Source: an uncultured Clostridia bacterium (GTDB taxonomy: Bacteria > Bacillota > Clostridia > Oscillospirales > Acutalibacteraceae). Taken from it: 64,000 nucleotides of DNA. Below, one piece after another: positions 12,187-49,254 of the stretch. The stretch lies in the NCBI GenBank assembly GCA_945787805.1, contig CALZID010000003.1:1-64000 (forward strand). The letters are read 5' to 3'. Each line of letters begins with the position of its first letter. Position 1 is the first letter of the stretch. The notes under the pieces were generated by a model that was not told the DNA's origin, did no database searches, and worked only from the letters and a program-made list of their open reading frames with translations. Both the position numbers and the translations under genes were made by a program.

Positions 12187-13119
12187 TCAATCTGCAAACA
12201 TCGGTGTTGATAAATATCTGTCGCCCGTGTCGGGGAGAAGCACAACAATTGTTTTTCCTTCGTTTTCATCTCGTTTGGCAAGTTCTATTGCCGCAAAGGC
12301 GGCGGCACCTGAAGAAATGCCTACAAGAACGCCTTCGCTTCTGCCTATAAGTTTTCCCACAGCAAAAGCGTCTTCATTTTCAACCGTGATAATCTCGTCA
12401 TAAATACTTGTGTTTAAAATTTCGGGGACAAATCCTGCGCCGATGCCCTGAATTTTGTGGGGACCCGCAACACCGGTTGAAAGCACGGGGGAAGAAGCGG
12501 GTTCAACAGCAACAATTTTTATGTCGGGATTTTGAGATTTCAAGTATTCTCCTACACCGGTTAATGTACCGCCCGTACCTACGCCTGCTACAAAAATATC
12601 CACTTTACCGTCTGTGTCTTCGTATATTTCGGGACCCGTTGTTTCACGGTGTGCCTGTGGATTAGCAGGATTTACAAACTGACCGGGAATAAAACTGTTG
12701 GGTATTTCTGCTGCCAATTCTTCTGCTTTTGCAATAGCGCCTTTCATACCTTTTGCACCGTCTGTAAGCACAAGCTCGGCACCGTAGGCTTTCATTAACT
12801 GACGGCGTTCAACCGACATGGTTTCGGGCATTACAATAATTATTCTATAGCCTCTTGCTGCGGCTACTGCGGCAAGGCCTATACCTGTGTTGCCTGAAGT
12901 CGGCTCAATAATTACGGAGTCGGGTTTGAGCTTTCCCGATTTTTCCGCATCGCCAATCATTGCTTTTGCCACACGGTCTTTAACAGAACCTGCGGGATTA
13001 AAATATTCAAGCTTTGCAACAACTTTGGCTTTAAGTTCAAGACTTTTTTCAATGTTTGTGAGCTCTAAAAGCGGTGTTTTGCCGATGAGAAGGTCGGCAG
13101 ATGAATAAATTTTTGACAT
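12187..13119 (-). CDS. cysK: Cysteine synthase (O-acetylserine sulfhydrylase)
   Basis: A 310-aa PLP enzyme making cysteine from O-acetylserine and sulfide. PLP lysine is Lys47 in NPAGSVKDR; the substrate loop TSGNTG and the phosphate-binding glycine loop GTGGT are present. Length is typical. It lies 15 bases after metY on the same strand, so both are under the Met/Cys leader attenuator at 14.6-14.8 kb. A shared bidirectional terminator follows. Confidence 0.94.
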
Positions 13120-13134
13120 AATAATAACCTCCGA

Positions 13135-14418
13135 TTATTTAACTGAATTAAAACCGTTTTGCAAGTCGGCAATAATATCGTCGATATGCTCTGTACCGAT
13201 TGAAAGACGAATTGTGTTTTGCTTTATACCCTGGTCAAGAAGCTCTTCTTCGGTAAGCTGACTGTGGGTAGTTGTAGCAGGGTGAATAACAAGGCTTTTC
13301 ACATCTGCCACATTGGCAAGCAATGAAAAGATTTTCAAGCTGTCAATGAATTTGTGCGCTTCGGCCTGACCGCCCTTGATTTCAAAGGTGAAGATTGAGC
13401 CGCCGCCGTTGGGAAAGTATTTTTTATAAAGTGTATGGTCCGGGTGGTCCGGTAATGACGGATGATTGACTTTTTCCACTTGCGGATGATTTGAGAGAAA
13501 CTCTATTACTTTTTTAGTATTTTCCGCATGGCGCTCTAAACGGAGCGATAAGGTTTCAATTCCCTGCAAAAGTAAAAAGGCGGCAAAAGGTGAAATTGTA
13601 GCACCGGTATCACGAAGCAGAATTGCACGGATATATGTTACAAATGCCGCAGGTCCCACTGCTTTTACAAAAGATACGCCGTGATAGCTTGGGTTAGGCT
13701 CTGCAATAGCAGGGTATTTACCGCTTGCGCTCCAATCAAAGTTACCTGAATCAACAATAACACCGCCAAGTGTTGTACCGTGTCCGCCGAGAAATTTAGT
13801 TGCGGAATGAACTACTATATCGGCGCCGTGCTCAATAGGACGAATAAGATAGGGCGTGCCGAAGGTGTTATCCACTACTAACGGAAGACCGTGCTTGTGA
13901 GCAAGCTCAGCCATTGCGTCAATATCGGGAATGTCGCTGTTGGGATTACCCAAGGTTTCAATGTAAATGGCTCTTGTGTTTTCTTGAATTGCCGCCTCGA
14001 CTTCATTGAGGTTGTGAATATTTACAAAGCTTGCCGTAATGCCGAAGTTGGGAAGTGTGTGTGCCAACAGATTATAACTTCCGCCGTAGATAGTTTTTTG
14101 TGCAACAAAGTGACCGCCGTTCTGACCGAGTGCTTCAAGAGTATATGTTATAGCCGCCGCACCCGAAGCCAGTGCCAAAGCCGCTACGCCGCCTTCAAGA
14201 GCGGCTATGCGCTTTTCCAAAACATCTTGAGTGGAGTTGGTGAGTCTGCCGTAAATGTTGCCTGCATCCGCAAGACCGAATCGTGCTGCGGCGTGTTCGC
14301 AATTGTGAAATACATAAGAAGTTGTTGCGTAAATAGGCACTGCTCGTGCATCCGTTGCAATATCGGGTTGTTCCTGACCTACATGAAGTTGAAGTGTTTC
14401 AAATTTATATTCTGACAT
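13135..14418 (-). CDS. metY: O-acetylhomoserine sulfhydrylase (MetY)
   Basis: A 427-aa Cys/Met-metabolism PLP enzyme of the MetY subgroup (longer than MetB/MetC). It condenses O-acetylhomoserine with sulfide to homocysteine. PLP lysine is Lys208 in VVHSATKFLGGHG; IYGRLTNSTQ and ALASGAAA are family motifs. With MetA of the acetyl type and CysK next to it, direct sulfhydrylation is the predicted methionine route. Start ATG 14418 has AAAGGA upstream. Two small ORFs and an attenuator lie between promoter and gene. Confidence 0.95.
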   Translation of the reverse strand: MSEYKFETLQLHVGQEQPDIATDARAVPIYATTSYVFHNCEHAAARFGLADAGNIYGRLTNSTQDVLEKRIAALEGGVAALALASGAAAITYTLEALGQNGGHFVAQKTIYGGSYNLLAHTLPNFGITASFVNIHNLNEVEAAIQENTRAIYIETLGNPNSDIPDIDAMAELAHKHGLPLVVDNTFGTPYLIRPIEHGADIVVHSATKFLGGHGTTLGGVIVDSGNFDWSASGKYPAIAEPNPSYHGVSFVKAVGPAAFVTYIRAILLRDTGATISPFAAFLLLQGIETLSLRLERHAENTKKVIEFLSNHPQVEKVNHPSLPDHPDHTLYKKYFPNGGGSIFTFEIKGGQAEAHKFIDSLKIFSLLANVADVKSLVIHPATTTHSQLTEEELLDQGIKQNTIRLSIGTEHIDDIIADLQNGFNSVK

Positions 14419-14469
14419 AATTTATTTTCCTTTCGTTATTGAATGTGTTCGTGTAAATTTGTTTATTTG

Positions 14470-14547
14470 TTAATTAGAATAATTACAGCGACACATTCGA
14501 CCGAATCGGAAATTTGCTCTTACGAGTTTTTCAAAAGGATTTTCCAT
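14470..14547 (-). CDS. 25-aa small ORF ending in MCRC, between attenuator and metY
   Basis: ATG 14547 has GGCAGGT seven bases upstream and opens a 25-residue peptide that begins MENPFEKLV and ends FGRMCRCNYSN, with TAA at 14470. It lies after the terminator hairpin and 51 bases before metY. Two cysteines and a methionine close to the stop suggest a second leader peptide sensing sulfur amino acids at the translational level, or simply a translated spacer. I know of no named family. Confidence 0.5.
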   Translation of the reverse strand: MENPFEKLVRANFRFGRMCRCNYSN

Positions 14548-14576
14548 AATGTTTACCTGCCTTTAAAAAACAAAAA

Positions 14577-14607
14577 AATCGGAGGACTCCGATAAAGTCT
14601 CCCGATT
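14577..14607 (-). terminator. Attenuator terminator upstream of metY-cysK
   Basis: In the minus-strand transcript AATCGGGAGACT (14607-14596) pairs with AGTCCTCCGATT (14588-14577) around a 7-nt loop, with one mismatch and one G-T pair, followed at once by a T-run. A terminator ahead of the structural genes and just after a Met/Cys-rich leader ORF is the hallmark of attenuation. An alternative pairing of its left arm with the leader coding sequence exists (see the leader entry). Confidence 0.8.
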
Positions 14608-14640
14608 GTAAACTAATATAATTTCGCTGAAATAAGGCGA

Positions 14641-14760
14641 TTATGGGTTTACTTTTGAAACGGAGAACATATCGGAAAAAGACACACAAGAAGTCTTGCA
14701 CATGAGTTCAGTACACATGCACATTTCCATCATCATATTAACAGAAACGAATTTCTTCAT
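14641..14760 (-). CDS. Met/Cys-rich leader peptide of the metY-cysK operon
   Basis: A 39-codon ORF starting ATG 14760 after AAAGGAG (8-nt spacing) and ending TAA 14641. The core NMMMEMCMCTELMCKTSC is packed with Met and Cys: 8 Met and 4 Cys in 39 residues. The RNA can fold as in classical attenuators. Segment 1 AAGAC (codons 22-23) pairs with segment 2 GTCTT (codons 26-28). Segment 2, GTCTTTTTCCGAT (14683-14671), can instead pair with the terminator left arm ATCGGGAGAC. Ribosome stalling on Met or Cys codons would favour 2:3 pairing and read-through; fast translation to the stop would cover segment 2 and let the terminator form. ORF and foldings are seen directly; the regulation is inferred. 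Confidence 0.8.
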   Translation of the reverse strand: MKKFVSVNMMMEMCMCTELMCKTSCVSFSDMFSVSKVNP

Positions 14761-14808
14761 GACATATTCTCCTTTTTATTTGAATTCCTAAAAGATTAGG
14801 TTACCGCA

Positions 14809-14837
14809 AGCATATCACGGATTTTTTTGCTTGTCAA
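14809..14837 (-). promoter_or_regulatory. Promoter of the leader-metY-cysK operon
   Basis: On the minus strand TTGACA (14832-14837) and TATGCT (14809-14814) are 17 bp apart. Transcription would start near 14802, about 40 bases before the leader ATG, consistent with a translated leader. Confidence 0.75.
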
Positions 14838-14883
14838 TAGATACTTTTTAATTTTAAAAAAATTTTTTCTCTGTTTATTTTTT

Positions 14884-15492
14884 CTAATCGGCTGAGTATT
14901 CTCTGACTCTCAATGGAATACCAATTTCTTCACAAAGTTTTTTACAATCTTCAATATCTTCTTCGCTTATTACATCAACAACCGTTAGCTTTGTCTGAAT
15001 ACCGAATTCTTTACATTCTTTTGCAAAGCCCAGCATTGCATCAAATGCCTTTTCGCCGAAAGACGGTTGAGTGATTTCATTGTATTTTTCAGCGGTGGGT
15101 GCGTTAAGACTGATTGAAACCGAGTCGATAACTTCGCAGATTTCCTTTGCGGTTTCACGCTTATTTATAAGGTCGGAAAGTCCGTTTGTGTTAAGACGGA
15201 TAAAAATTCCCTTTGACTTCATATATTTACACGCTTCAATTAAATTATCAAGGGCGCAGGTGGGCTCACCGTAGCCGCAAAGAATAACAGAATTGTTGTA
15301 TTTACCGAAATCAAAGCCGTCAATAGCATTTTTTATTTCTTCGATAGTGGGACTGTGCTTGTCAAACCAAAGTGTTGTTGCTTCACCGACAGAATCACCG
15401 TTATTGCGAATACAGAATTTGCATCTGCAAGGACAAGCGTTAGTAATATTTAAATAAGCACTGCCGCCATAAGTGTAAATAATATCAGCCAT
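14884..15492 (-). CDS. Radical SAM protein, TatD-associated type
   Basis: A 202-aa short radical SAM protein with Cys20-x3-Cys24-x2-Cys27 (ACPCRCKFC), preceded by YLNITNACPCRC. GYGEPT and LNTNG follow as in other radical SAM enzymes. It resembles the small group often found next to TatD nucleases, but no TatD gene is adjacent here. Substrate unknown. It follows the S component gene by 19 bases and is probably the last gene of the vitamin B6 cluster operon. Confidence 0.75.
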   Translation of the reverse strand: MADIIYTYGGSAYLNITNACPCRCKFCIRNNGDSVGEATTLWFDKHSPTIEEIKNAIDGFDFGKYNNSVILCGYGEPTCALDNLIEACKYMKSKGIFIRLNTNGLSDLINKRETAKEICEVIDSVSISLNAPTAEKYNEITQPSFGEKAFDAMLGFAKECKEFGIQTKLTVVDVISEEDIEDCKKLCEEIGIPLRVREYSAD

Positions 15493-15511: not shown

Positions 15512-16072
15512 TTATTTGTTTATGTATTTTTTGAATCCTGCTTTGTCAAGTGCCGCAGCAAGAATAATAAATATAATAATACTGCCGATTGATTGCACAA
15601 AACTGCCGGGGATTGAGTCAATTGCCGCAGCAGAGAGAAGTGCTGTAAAGGAACCCTCAACTTTGTCGTAACCGCCTATGCCGAATGCCATTATGATTAC
15701 AGTTGAAATATAATATCCCGATGTAGAAATTGCACCGGATAATATGGACATAAAGCCGTTTCTCTTTGTGAGAATTTTGTCTGCCGCATTATTCATAGGC
15801 AGCGCAATCAAAAACTTAATAACCATTGTAAAGGGTGCCCAATATCCGTAACCTGTGAGCAGGTCCGCAAGTCCGCCGCCGATTGTACCTGCCAATGCAC
15901 CAAAGGGAAAAGGCAAAACACATGCGGCTATATAAATTATCGCGTCACCGAAATGCACATACTGTCCCATTCCTACGGGAATGTGCAAATATGCGGTAGG
16001 TAAAAATACCAAGGTTGCAAACACGGCGCACAGAGCAACCGTAATTACTTTCTTTTTAGATTTGTCTTCCAT
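15512..16072 (-). CDS. ECF transporter substrate-binding (S) component, probably for vitamin B6
   Basis: A 186-aa integral membrane protein with about five or six hydrophobic segments and the glycine-rich pattern of ECF S components (GALAGTIGGGLADLLTGYGYWAPFT). S components dictate the vitamin taken up and share a common energising module encoded elsewhere. Its place directly after pyridoxamine kinase, opposite a PdxR-type regulator, points to pyridoxine or a related B6 vitamer. The substrate is inferred from neighbours only. Confidence 0.8.
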   Translation of the reverse strand: MEDKSKKKVITVALCAVFATLVFLPTAYLHIPVGMGQYVHFGDAIIYIAACVLPFPFGALAGTIGGGLADLLTGYGYWAPFTMVIKFLIALPMNNAADKILTKRNGFMSILSGAISTSGYYISTVIIMAFGIGGYDKVEGSFTALLSAAAIDSIPGSFVQSIGSIIIFIILAAALDKAGFKKYINK

Positions 16073-16087
16073 ATCAATTTCTCCTTT

Positions 16088-16933
16088 TTACAGGGTTTTT
16101 AAAAATTTTTGAAAATCAATTCCGTCGTTGCGGTCGTGAGAGTGAGTAACGGTTTCGGCTATTCCCTTGCTGATAAAATCCGTCGCCTTAATAACCGCAG
16201 ATAACGGATTTAACCCTAACAGCAGTGATGAAATCGTAACACTTGCGAACAGGTCGCCTGTGCCCGAAAAACTACCGCCGATTTTTTTTGTTGTTACTGT
16301 GTTAAACCCATTCTCCCACAACACGGCAGTTGCAATATAATCTTCACTGTTTTGTGTTACGGGAATACCCGTTGTAATGACGGTTTTCAGTTTTTCACCT
16401 GTTAGATTTCGAGAAATACTTTGTATCTTCTCAAAAACTTCAGCAGTCGATAATTTGCAGATTTCTTCATAATCTTCATCTGCTAATATGCAAAGTTCTG
16501 TAAGATTGGGTGTGATTACACTTGCCTTTTTCACAAGGAATTTAAGCTTTTCGCACATTTTCTCATTATATGAAGAATAAAGCTTGCCGTTGTCACCCAT
16601 AACGGGGTCAACAAGGGTTACAGTATTTTCATTTGAAAAATTATCAATGAAATCACCGATAAAATCAATCTGCTCTTCGTTGACTACAAAGCCTGAAAAA
16701 ATTCCGTCGAATCGGGGATAGATATTCTTCCAATTCTCTGTGAAATTCTTCATTTTTTCGGTGAAATCTTCACAGAAATAACAGCCGTAGCCCGTCTGGT
16801 TTGAAAGTACAGCAGTGGGCAGCGGACAACATTCCATTCCCATTGCAGAAATAACGGGGATTGCCGCTGTCAGAGAGCATCTGCCGAAGCCCGACAAATC
16901 ATTGATTACCGCAATTCTTTTCAAACCATTCAC
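16088..16933 (-). CDS. pdxK: Pyridoxamine/pyridoxal kinase
   Basis: A 281-aa ribokinase-fold kinase phosphorylating B6 vitamers. Typical marks are the N-terminal INDLSGFGRCSLTAAIPV, DPVMGDNG and the catalytic GTGD in GGSFSGTGDLFAS. The next gene (S component) starts 15 bases downstream. It is divergent from the MocR-family regulator, with a 115-bp shared regulatory region. Could also accept other pyridoxine-like substrates. Confidence 0.88.
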   Translation of the reverse strand: MNGLKRIAVINDLSGFGRCSLTAAIPVISAMGMECCPLPTAVLSNQTGYGCYFCEDFTEKMKNFTENWKNIYPRFDGIFSGFVVNEEQIDFIGDFIDNFSNENTVTLVDPVMGDNGKLYSSYNEKMCEKLKFLVKKASVITPNLTELCILADEDYEEICKLSTAEVFEKIQSISRNLTGEKLKTVITTGIPVTQNSEDYIATAVLWENGFNTVTTKKIGGSFSGTGDLFASVTISSLLLGLNPLSAVIKATDFISKGIAETVTHSHDRNDGIDFQKFLKTL

Positions 16934-16950
16934 CGCCTAAAAAATTAAAA

Positions 16951-16999
16951 TAAAAAGTGTTTGCAAATACCTTTATTGTGGTATATAATAAACCAAAAG
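16951..16999 (+). promoter_or_regulatory. pdxR promoter with direct repeats (putative PdxR site)
   Basis: TTGCAA (16961-16966) and TATAAT (16984-16989) are 17 bp apart. AAAAGTGT occurs twice in direct orientation, just upstream of the -35 and again just after the -10, with GTGGTATA between. MocR-type regulators bind spaced direct repeats, so this region probably serves autoregulation and control of pdxK. Confidence 0.6.
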
Positions 17000-17048
17000 T
17001 GTCTTTAATAAAATGCACAAAATAAAGAATTTTTAAGGGGACAGTTTT

Positions 17049-18344
17049 ATGGCTGAAAATCAAAAACTGTATATGCAAATTTACAATTATTACAAAAAAC
17101 TCATTGAAGAAGGCACGCTTTCAAAAGGTGTGCGTCTGCCGTCAATCCGTCGTTGTGCAGAAGAGAGAAATGTGAGCAAAACAACGGTTGAACAAGCATA
17201 TATGTGCCTTTGTGACGACGGTTACATTGTGCCGAAAAGCCAAAGCGGATACTATGTTTCAAAATCAAAATCCAATGTGGTAATTCAAAATAACAGCCAA
17301 ATATCAAGCAAGAATAAAAATGATATTTTATATGATTTTTCATCGGTGGGTGTTGACGCCGAAAGCTTTAATATGGATATATGGCGAAGATATGTGAAAA
17401 GTGCTCTGAGACAGACCGAAAAACTGCTTTTCTACGGTGAACCGCAGGGCGAAATTGAACTTCGCAGAGAGATTGCAGAATATGTCCGACAAAGTCGAAA
17501 CTGTGTATGTAACGAAGAAAACATCGTTATCGGTGCAGGTGTGCAAACCCTTCTGAGTATTATTTGCCCAATACTTAAAAACCGAAAAACCGTGTATTTT
17601 GAAGATAAAAACTATAAGCAGGGCATCGCAATTTTTGAAGACTACGGATACAAATTTTCAAGCAGAGAAAAGAGTAATATTCTATATGTTTCACCGTCCT
17701 ATTCCGGCAAAACAGGGGATAGTATGAGCGTTAATGACAGATTTTCTCTCGTGGAATTTGCAAGAGAAAACAATAAAATTATTATCGAAGATGACTATGG
17801 CAGTGAATTTCGCTATTTAAACCGACCGACCCCGTCTTTGCAAGGTCTTGACGGCGGTGAAAATGTGGTATATTTGGGGACATTCTCAAAACTTTTGTTA
17901 CCGTCAATCAGAATTAGTTTTATGATTTTGCCAAATGCGATTTTAAGTGAATACAAGAAAAAAAGTCACCAATATAACCAAACTGTTTCAAAGGCTGACC
18001 AAATAGCACTTTGCAGTTATATCCGTGACGGACACTTAAATTCTCAAATAAGAAAATCCAGAAAACTGTATATGCAAAAATCTAAAATGCTCAGTGATTT
18101 ACTCTTACAAAAATTCGGTAAAAAAGTGAAAATAATAAAATCCGATTCGCCCCTTTATGTAAGGTGTGCTTTCAATTTGCCGCTAACTAATAAAGAAATA
18201 CAAAAAAGACTTTTAGAAAAAGGCGTTGCAGTAATATTGTCAGGTGAAAAAGACGAGATTGCTTTTTCGGTTTCGTCGGTTTCGATAAATCACCTTGAAA
18301 AAGCGGTGGAAACTATGAAAAATGCTATTGATATTTGTCAATAA
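17049..18344 (+). CDS. pdxR: MocR/PdxR family transcriptional regulator (GntR HTH fused to aminotransferase fold)
   Basis: A 431-aa protein. Residues 1-75 are a GntR-type winged helix (LPSIRRCAEERNVSKTTVEQAY). The rest is a class I aminotransferase-like domain with the PLP lysine Lys281 in TFSKLLLPSIR. Such proteins sense PLP and control B6 genes. It faces pdxK and the S-component gene across a 115-bp intergenic region with repeated AAAAGTGT, so it most likely regulates vitamin B6 salvage. The symbol rests on this context. Confidence 0.82.
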   Translation: MAENQKLYMQIYNYYKKLIEEGTLSKGVRLPSIRRCAEERNVSKTTVEQAYMCLCDDGYIVPKSQSGYYVSKSKSNVVIQNNSQISSKNKNDILYDFSSVGVDAESFNMDIWRRYVKSALRQTEKLLFYGEPQGEIELRREIAEYVRQSRNCVCNEENIVIGAGVQTLLSIICPILKNRKTVYFEDKNYKQGIAIFEDYGYKFSSREKSNILYVSPSYSGKTGDSMSVNDRFSLVEFARENNKIIIEDDYGSEFRYLNRPTPSLQGLDGGENVVYLGTFSKLLLPSIRISFMILPNAILSEYKKKSHQYNQTVSKADQIALCSYIRDGHLNSQIRKSRKLYMQKSKMLSDLLLQKFGKKVKIIKSDSPLYVRCAFNLPLTNKEIQKRLLEKGVAVILSGEKDEIAFSVSSVSINHLEKAVETMKNAIDICQ

Positions 18345-49110: not shown

Positions 49111-49254
49111 TTAGCAACAGCCACAGTCAAAGTCTCTGCGTTCGCAGCATTTGTTGCATTCACAGCCACAGCCGCAACCGTTGTTATTATCAGTGAGAAG
49201 GATTAAGATGATAATAACAATCAACCAAGAGTTGTTACCAAAGAAGTTACACAT
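49111..49254 (-). CDS. 47-aa cysteine-rich small membrane protein
   Basis: ATG 49254 with GGAGGGAGGA upstream opens a 47-residue protein: a short start MCNFFGNNS, a hydrophobic stretch WLIVIIILILL, then a tail with nine cysteines (GCGCGCECNKCCE and DCGCC). It is too short for automatic ORF calling. Small proteins of this plan (one helix plus Cys-rich tail) are found in clostridial genomes without known function; metal binding or spore/envelope association are guesses. Confidence 0.7.
   Translation of the reverse strand: MCNFFGNNSWLIVIIILILLTDNNNGCGCGCECNKCCERRDFDCGCC

Follow-up and report, generated by a model that had tools for sequence, protein, structure and literature searches.

A Met- and Cys-rich leader ORF with alternative RNA pairings points to ribosome-mediated attenuation of metY-cysK in an uncultured Clostridia bacterium

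Introduction

What controls an operon for methionine and cysteine metabolism when a short ORF crowded with Met and Cys codons stands between its promoter and its first gene? The question arises at a locus of an uncultured Clostridia bacterium, in a stretch of 64,000 nucleotides that was analysed as a whole (the window). From 14837 to 14577, the minus strand carries a promoter, then a 39-codon ORF and then an intrinsic terminator, ahead of metY-cysK (Table 1). A sequence-only reading of this DNA had proposed a trp-type attenuator, in which ribosomes translating the ORF sense both Met and Cys.

Table 1. Features of the metY-cysK leader region, in window coordinates
Feature	Position	Strand	Basis or remark
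Sigma-70-type promoter, TTGACA-17-TATGCT, TG before the -10 box	14809..14837	-	Sequence and homologues
Degenerate palindrome AACCTAATCTTTTAGGAATT, near the expected transcription start	14783..14802	-	Sequence and homologues; putative
Probable segment 1, leader RBS GGAGAATATGTC	14761..14772	-	Can pair 12 bases with segment 2; duplex -15.8 kcal/mol
Leader peptide ORF, 39 codons, 8 Met (start included) and 4 Cys	14641..14760	-	Stop codon 14643-14641
Segment 2, UCCGAUAUGUUCUCC, leader codons S-D-M-F-S at the ORF end	14662..14676	-	Antiterminator strand
Hairpin region inside the antiterminator, which includes the stop codon of the leader and has GTAAAC/GTTTAC as its outer helix	14608..14652	-	Folding and alignment
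Segment 3, GGAGACUUUAUCGGA, terminator 5' arm and loop	14588..14602	-	Partner of segment 2
Intrinsic terminator AATCGGGAGACT-TTATCGG-AGTCCTCCGATT	14577..14607	-	U-tract follows to ~14572
uORF2, MENPFEKLVRANFRFGRMCRCNYSN, between terminator and metY	14470..14547	-	Conserved before metY, metQ and transporter genes in relatives
metY, O-acetylhomoserine sulfhydrylase	13135..14418	-	TIGR01326 above NCBIfam cut-off
cysK, cysteine synthase A	12187..13119	-	TIGR01139 above NCBIfam cut-off

Results

Met and Cys codons of the leader ORF

The promoter and the two downstream enzymes named in the sequence-only reading were all recovered. A similar promoter occupies the equivalent position in homologous loci; the promoter scan alone is no evidence, because it found one site in 14300-15100 and shuffled sequences averaged 3.3. 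In homologues (L005, L020, L107 and others) a palindrome, ACCAACCT..GGTAGGT, lies just 3' of the -10 box. We take it to resemble an Rrf2/CymR-type operator, and its degenerate counterpart in the window to be a candidate operator.

The neighbourhood holds further genes. A TIGR04100 radical SAM gene (14884-15492) sits between the metY leader and the genes at 15512-18344, which are a divergent pyridoxamine kinase gene and a MocR-like PdxR regulator, adjoining a TIGR04002 membrane protein. Elsewhere in the window, a 47-codon ORF at 49254(-) has a Shine-Dalgarno site, a hydrophobic N-terminal half and a Cys-rich tail (GCGCGCECNKCC...); it is possibly a small membrane or metal-binding peptide.

The leader peptide is MKKFVSVNMMMEMCMCTELMCKTSCVSFSDMFSVSKVNP, with AAAAAGGAGAAT upstream as a strong ribosome binding site (RBS). 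Its length, Met and Cys counts and RBS had been called correctly. It stands second for Met+Cys share among the 700 window ORFs of 25-60 codons, and highest among the 23 that have a Shine-Dalgarno-like site. At an assumed frequency of 4%, the binomial chance of at least 11 Met or Cys in 38 internal codons is 2e-7. The operon is thus preceded by a short ORF with an RBS that is rich in codons for the amino acids of the genes downstream. Across 38 homologous leaders (excluding L123 and the cut L059), internal Met amounts to 15.4% and Cys to 11.7%. These codons persist while the remaining residues drift. Between the window and G011:C13, from the same genus, 8/10 Met/Cys codons are kept in codons 2-28 against 1/17 of the others (Fisher p 2e-4).

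Met/Cys-rich peptides can bind soft metals, and the strong RBS would also suit an ORF that encodes a functional small protein (for example in metal binding), with a terminator that is constitutive or limits expression. However, the 16 of 17 other residues lost to drift, a Met:Cys mix that varies among loci, and an ORF end that doubles as an antiterminator strand, often at a fixed distance from the last Met/Cys codon, make such a protein highly improbable; no Pfam or NCBIfam family matched the leader peptides tried. It is likewise scarcely credible that ATGTGCATGTG recurs as a nucleotide motif (a protein site or RNA repeat) with Met/Cys richness as its by-product. Although ATGTGCATG is frequent in the alignment, the L088 and L112 leaders are Cys-rich without the motif, and the frame is kept in 34/36 loci examined even though the start stands at varying distances from segment 2.

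Distribution of homologous leaders

The sequence-only reading had named conservation of the small ORF and of the alternative pairings in relatives as its test. Homologous leaders occur at 40 distinct loci, comprising the window's, 25 found by a pattern and 14 found by a covariance model only (L059, L102-L105, L107, L109-L112, L114, L115, L119 and L123). The Met/Cys-rich ORF, the antiterminator and the terminator are kept, some of the changes in them being compensatory. Wherever the downstream gene is identifiable, it is a Met/Cys gene or belongs to an amino-acid transporter. Spread over ten genome-search family labels (f1, f7, f14, f18, f19, f21, f35, f44, f69 and f76), the 40 loci show a wide but patchy distribution. 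Conservation among near relatives had been expected, yet only 2/39 genomes of the genus have the element.

When the genus was searched by DNA sequence, G011:C13 was the only convincing homologue. When metY upstream regions from the 39 genomes were compared (23 loci, window included; the L013 stretch, on the wrong strand, was left out), the long leader was seen among these loci only at the window's own, and most of the compared loci have the promoter, an ACC..GGT palindrome and a second short ORF (uORF2). This could mean that in the window genome the leader has decayed or lies idle, a remnant, with the promoter operator and uORF2 in control: most genus relatives read have promoter, palindrome and uORF2 and lack the attenuator, and the window palindrome is degenerate. 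However, the ORF, RBS, segments 1-4 and codon cluster are all intact in the window, and we consider a remnant quite improbable.

The wider searches were made with two covariance models and a pattern. The two-sequence model, built from the window leader and G011:C13, matched in 8/398 family genomes, of which five were real (the window's genome, G042, G390, G070 and G214, the last cut by its contig); L061, L062 and L063 were rejected as not real. The pattern scan of 84,980 species genomes gave 33 loci, 27 of them judged real by ORF and terminator and 25 distinct, the duplicates L075 and L084 being removed before alignment; L080, L081, L082, L085, L095 and L096 were rejected on the same grounds. 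By title, 16/27 real pattern loci belong to deer-gut assemblies (RGIG), and L089, titled Prevotella, probably reflects mis-binning; member genomes are largely metagenome bins. The 26-sequence model matched in 10/398 family genomes (9 real), 13/394 of the order (9 real), 5/341 of the class and 4/39 of the genus (2 real). In the class search L123 was the one non-own place, out of five, that was read; the other four are probably L073, L087, L065 and L064, because the bit scores are equal. Matches of this model at L106, L113 (a terminator without a leader), L116, L117 and L118 were rejected, as were L131 and L132 in the genus, and alignment A4, which has two antisense self-matches inside, was excluded from the counts. 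At L113 an HD-domain-like gene is preceded by a palindrome resembling an operator and by a terminator of this kind, with no leader ORF; this is perhaps an attenuator remnant.

At 34/36 loci given, segment 2 shares its frame with an upstream ATG that has a Shine-Dalgarno site by a loose definition, that of L102 probably being an internal Met; by the rule used, L079 and L093 have no start in this frame. The L065 ORF continues through the terminator, and L123 has its Met and Cys codons in a different frame from segment 2.

Mutually exclusive terminator and antiterminator

The leader RNA folds better than 200/200 dinucleotide shuffles (z -4.7). The terminator scan found one site (stem 14593-14578; complete hairpin 14607-14577) against 0.4 expected, and the rho-independent terminator of the sequence-only reading thus stands between ORF and operon and is conserved in relatives. 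The pairings proposed to compete with it fared differently. The 1:2 helix AAGAC/GTCTT was dropped because its GTCTT side is not conserved in relatives. The 2:3 antiterminator survives as a conserved alternative pairing, but not in the register first given, which is poorer than UCCGAUAUGUUCUCC:GGAGACUUUAUCGGA.

RNAalifold, run unconstrained on an alignment of 26 sequences, recovers the segment 2:3 pairing. In the antiterminator and inner hairpin 94.0% of 436 cells are paired, double changes affect 6/17 pairs, and the double-changed cells number 18 (15 of them in the inner hairpin and 3 in the arms of the antiterminator); none of 500 shuffles was as high on any of the three counts. Sliding the partner strand drops pairing to 30-58%. 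In the inner helix (columns 57-61/74-78), 5/5 pairs show changes on both sides across the 26 aligned sequences. The arms of the antiterminator hardly vary, but in alignment A3 the search pattern itself imposed much of this constancy of segments 2 and 3. At loci found without the pattern, segments 2 and 3 still pair although their letters have changed: TTCCGG with CCGGAA (L105), TCCGAA with TTCGGA (L112) and GATATGC with GCATATC (L114). Compared with shuffles, the pairing at ten off-pattern loci reached p<0.05 only at L119 (0.050 at L111, 0.067-0.29 at the rest). For the terminator, 89.7% of 312 cells are paired (9/500 shuffles as high) and 7 cells are double-changed (0/500); its 3 pairs with a double change were reached by 73/500 shuffles and its 11 further pair types by 186/500. 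A mutually exclusive antiterminator is thus kept in relatives, the double changes lying mostly in the inner hairpin and at off-pattern loci.

S-box and T-box control of such genes is established in Firmicutes. A leader that folds this well could likewise be a ligand- or protein-binding RNA (a SAM or cysteine riboswitch, a T-box or the site of an RNA-binding protein) that controls the terminator, with the ORF incidental. However, no Rfam family matched the window leader at its gathering threshold, including the S-box (RF00162) and T-box (RF00230) models, and with relaxed filters six loci, the window among them, gave over the element only sbrA at L102 (25.7 bits against a gathering threshold of 45, E 0.19). 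The genome's only SAM-I riboswitch match (L129, G000:C1:320394-320490) lies upstream of a metK-like ORF. Moreover, conservation is largely confined to the Met/Cys codons, segments 2-4 and the inner hairpin. We therefore judge control by such an RNA to be unlikely. The available part of one comparative study also treats S-box and T-box control of sulfur genes in Firmicutes (PMC1262725).

Met:Cys mix and downstream genes

The gene downstream of the leaders is mostly metY, and otherwise metQ, methionyl-tRNA synthetase, cysK or an amino-acid ABC transporter. The MetQ-type substrate-binding genes are followed by ATPase and permease genes. A family search covered five downstream proteins, the remaining genes being named by eye. 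It identified methionyl-tRNA synthetase at L105 (NF008900 and TIGR00398 above cut-off) and cysK at L088 (TIGR01139 above cut-off); the L114 MetQ matches MetQ/NlpA models below their cut-offs. Amino-acid ABC transporters follow L074, L077 and L112, and cystine-transporter models, below cut-off, are the third match for the L074 permease and the second for the L077 binding protein. No gene was recognised after L070 and L091.

The mix of codons before segment 2 tends to follow these genes. M/(M+C) is 0.56 in the 21 leaders counted as metY (including L070, which has no identified gene), 0.64 in 12 metQ/metG leaders and 0.38 in four transporter/cysK leaders; the last two differ with a Fisher p of 0.009, in a small group of related sequences. 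Met exceeds Cys in 9/11 metQ leaders, with two ties, and Cys exceeds Met before cysK (L088) and at 2/3 transporter loci (L074, L112). Exceptions are the methionyl-tRNA synthetase leader L105 (3 Met:4 Cys) and the transporter leader L077 (6 Met:3 Cys). These locus-to-locus differences make the sensing hypothesis directly testable.

A model of attenuation at the leader

As the sequence-only reading had suggested, comparison and folding support attenuation by ribosomes that respond to Met and Cys, and on these grounds we consider it very likely that the element is a ribosome-mediated transcription attenuator sensing charged methionyl- and cysteinyl-tRNA. The DNA itself shows the ORF, the pairings, their conservation with some covariation, and the downstream genes; translation, stalling, read-through and a response to amino acids are inferred. 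With Met and Cys plentiful, the ribosome would traverse the cluster and segment 2 to the stop codon, leaving segment 3 free for segment 4, and the terminator would halt transcription before uORF2-metY-cysK. With either scarce, it would stall in the cluster, its leading edge ending about where segment 2 starts; segment 2, left free, would pair with segment 3 and the polymerase would read on. Were the leader not translated, segment 2 would pair with the leader RBS and the terminator would form.

The spacing of the codons fits this scheme. The distance from the last Met/Cys codon to segment 2 is exactly three codons (9 nt) in 23/34 leaders and at least two in all of them (the analysis covered 36 of the 40 loci, two of which have no start by the rule used). 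Nine nucleotides is about the distance from the ribosomal A site to its leading edge, so that a ribosome stalled in the cluster would leave segment 2 free.

Segment 1 is probably the leader's own RBS, as judged from folding. The window fold contains an RBS:segment 2 helix, and at L077 the pairing spans 12 bases as in the window. The duplexes range from -5.9 to -18.3 kcal/mol over 34 leaders; these are uncontrolled values, part of which is to be expected with any Shine-Dalgarno sequence, as each can pair with CUCC. In a masking model of the window, which places the stop codon one base off, terminator probability was 0.96 with no ribosome, 0.93 with a ribosome covering segment 2, and 0.96 with one at the stop, or 0.78 with the RBS covered too. 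Ribosomes both in the cluster and on the RBS gave antiterminator 0.49-0.64 against terminator 0.26-0.41. In contrast, a single ribosome stalled in the cluster gave antiterminator 0.00 and terminator 0.96, the RBS pairing with segment 2. A trailing ribosome or steric hindrance would therefore be needed, because a lone stalled ribosome leaves the RBS free for segment 2; as modelled here, this is the weakest link of the attenuation model.

A second short ORF before metY

Another conserved short ORF, uORF2, had gone unnoticed in the sequence-only reading. It typically ends NFRFGRM(C), and 46/49 rows of the fetched-locus scan are uORF2-type, the others being L053, L054 and L096. L053 and L054 are second metY copies of two genus genomes, where an unrelated short ORF upstream ends RMCG with CGAATGTG. 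The invariance of CGAATG in uORF2 loci is not evidence, because the regular expression fixed those letters. Likewise, CGAATGTG octamers matched in 36/39 genus genomes, with reversed-pattern controls also frequent, and we draw no uORF2 regulon from this search because it was too permissive.

Pairing of the downstream Shine-Dalgarno site with the uORF2 region was examined at 48 loci, three of which have no Shine-Dalgarno site by the rule used; its mean probability over the other 45 is 0.59. Many metY loci have a high probability, but at others (L052, L065, L083, L087, L017 and L024) it is 0.01-0.13. At metQ and transporter loci it is mostly low (0.00-0.17 at L102, L104, L107, L077, L078 and L090), with the exceptions of L092 (0.82), L103 (0.59) and L111 (0.56). 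Cognate duplexes average -11.95 against -10.50 kcal/mol for swapped ones (mean rank 0.41), a slight advantage that leaves the anti-Shine-Dalgarno hairpin as a suggestion.

uORF2 may act as a further attenuator, at the level of translation, or as an arrest peptide. One could tentatively go further and imagine a two-level sulfur-amino-acid regulon, which we hold to be possible rather than probable, in which the attenuator's Met/Cys mix is adjusted to the gene that follows, with Cys dominant for cysK and some transporters, Met dominant for metQ, and the two together for metY. The second peptide, ...NFRFGRM(C), would either stall and so open a hairpin that sequesters the metY start, or be a new arrest peptide.

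Discussion

The leader resembles S-box (SAM-I) and T-box leaders in that these control termination before Met/Cys genes in Firmicutes; they differ in that ligand or tRNA binds the RNA directly, with no leader peptide. Leader peptides appear to coexist with these usual Firmicute devices, because the genome has the SAM-I match and the window itself a T-box leader (RF00230, 139.2 bits, 63544-63325(-)), upstream of a pheS-like gene.

In common with the trp/his/leu-type attenuators of enterobacteria, the window element has a leader ORF rich in regulatory codons, three alternative pairings and an intrinsic terminator. It differs from them in its signal (Met and Cys), its host (Clostridia), a segment 2 within the 3' part of the ORF and a segment 1 that is probably the leader RBS. 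In the strict trp-type layout, regulatory codons overlap segment 1, which the stalled ribosome itself masks. The window element departs from that layout: if the RBS is segment 1, it precedes the start codon and would have to be masked by a second ribosome.

Leader-peptide attenuation has precedents in Firmicutes. According to the accessible part of its report, Rli60, the ilv-leu leader of Listeria monocytogenes, combines experimentally supported ribosome-mediated attenuation with a promoter-level repressor; its leader differs in having 13 residues with branched-chain codons (PMC5864092). Histidine leader peptides before hisZ/hisS* are, in the excerpt available, predicted attenuators like ours, though with His codons and in bacilli (PMC2965389).

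Cys codons, too, have been described in leaders of sulfur genes. The portion of PMC1262725 consulted reports short ORFs with Cys runs before the cys operons of Mycobacterium and Propionibacterium acnes and before cbs of Bifidobacterium longum. These differ from the window's leader: that portion describes no conserved terminator hairpins, suggests Rho and mentions no Met codons (PMC1262725), whereas the window family has a conserved intrinsic terminator and so falls outside this class. The uORFC-8-2 motif before cysS of Rhodobacterales, where stalling on uncharged tRNA-Cys is presumed, shares Cys codons in a uORF and a U run after a stem; it differs in its two tandem Cys codons, alphaproteobacterial host and single gene, with no Met mentioned in the part of the paper available (PMC8632094). 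A methionine-sensing leader peptide is not described among the literature matches listed, which are titles and starts of abstracts with subscription papers mostly outside and do not establish absence in print. Set beside these systems, the leader family would extend ribosome-mediated attenuation to the sensing of Met, and of Met and Cys jointly.
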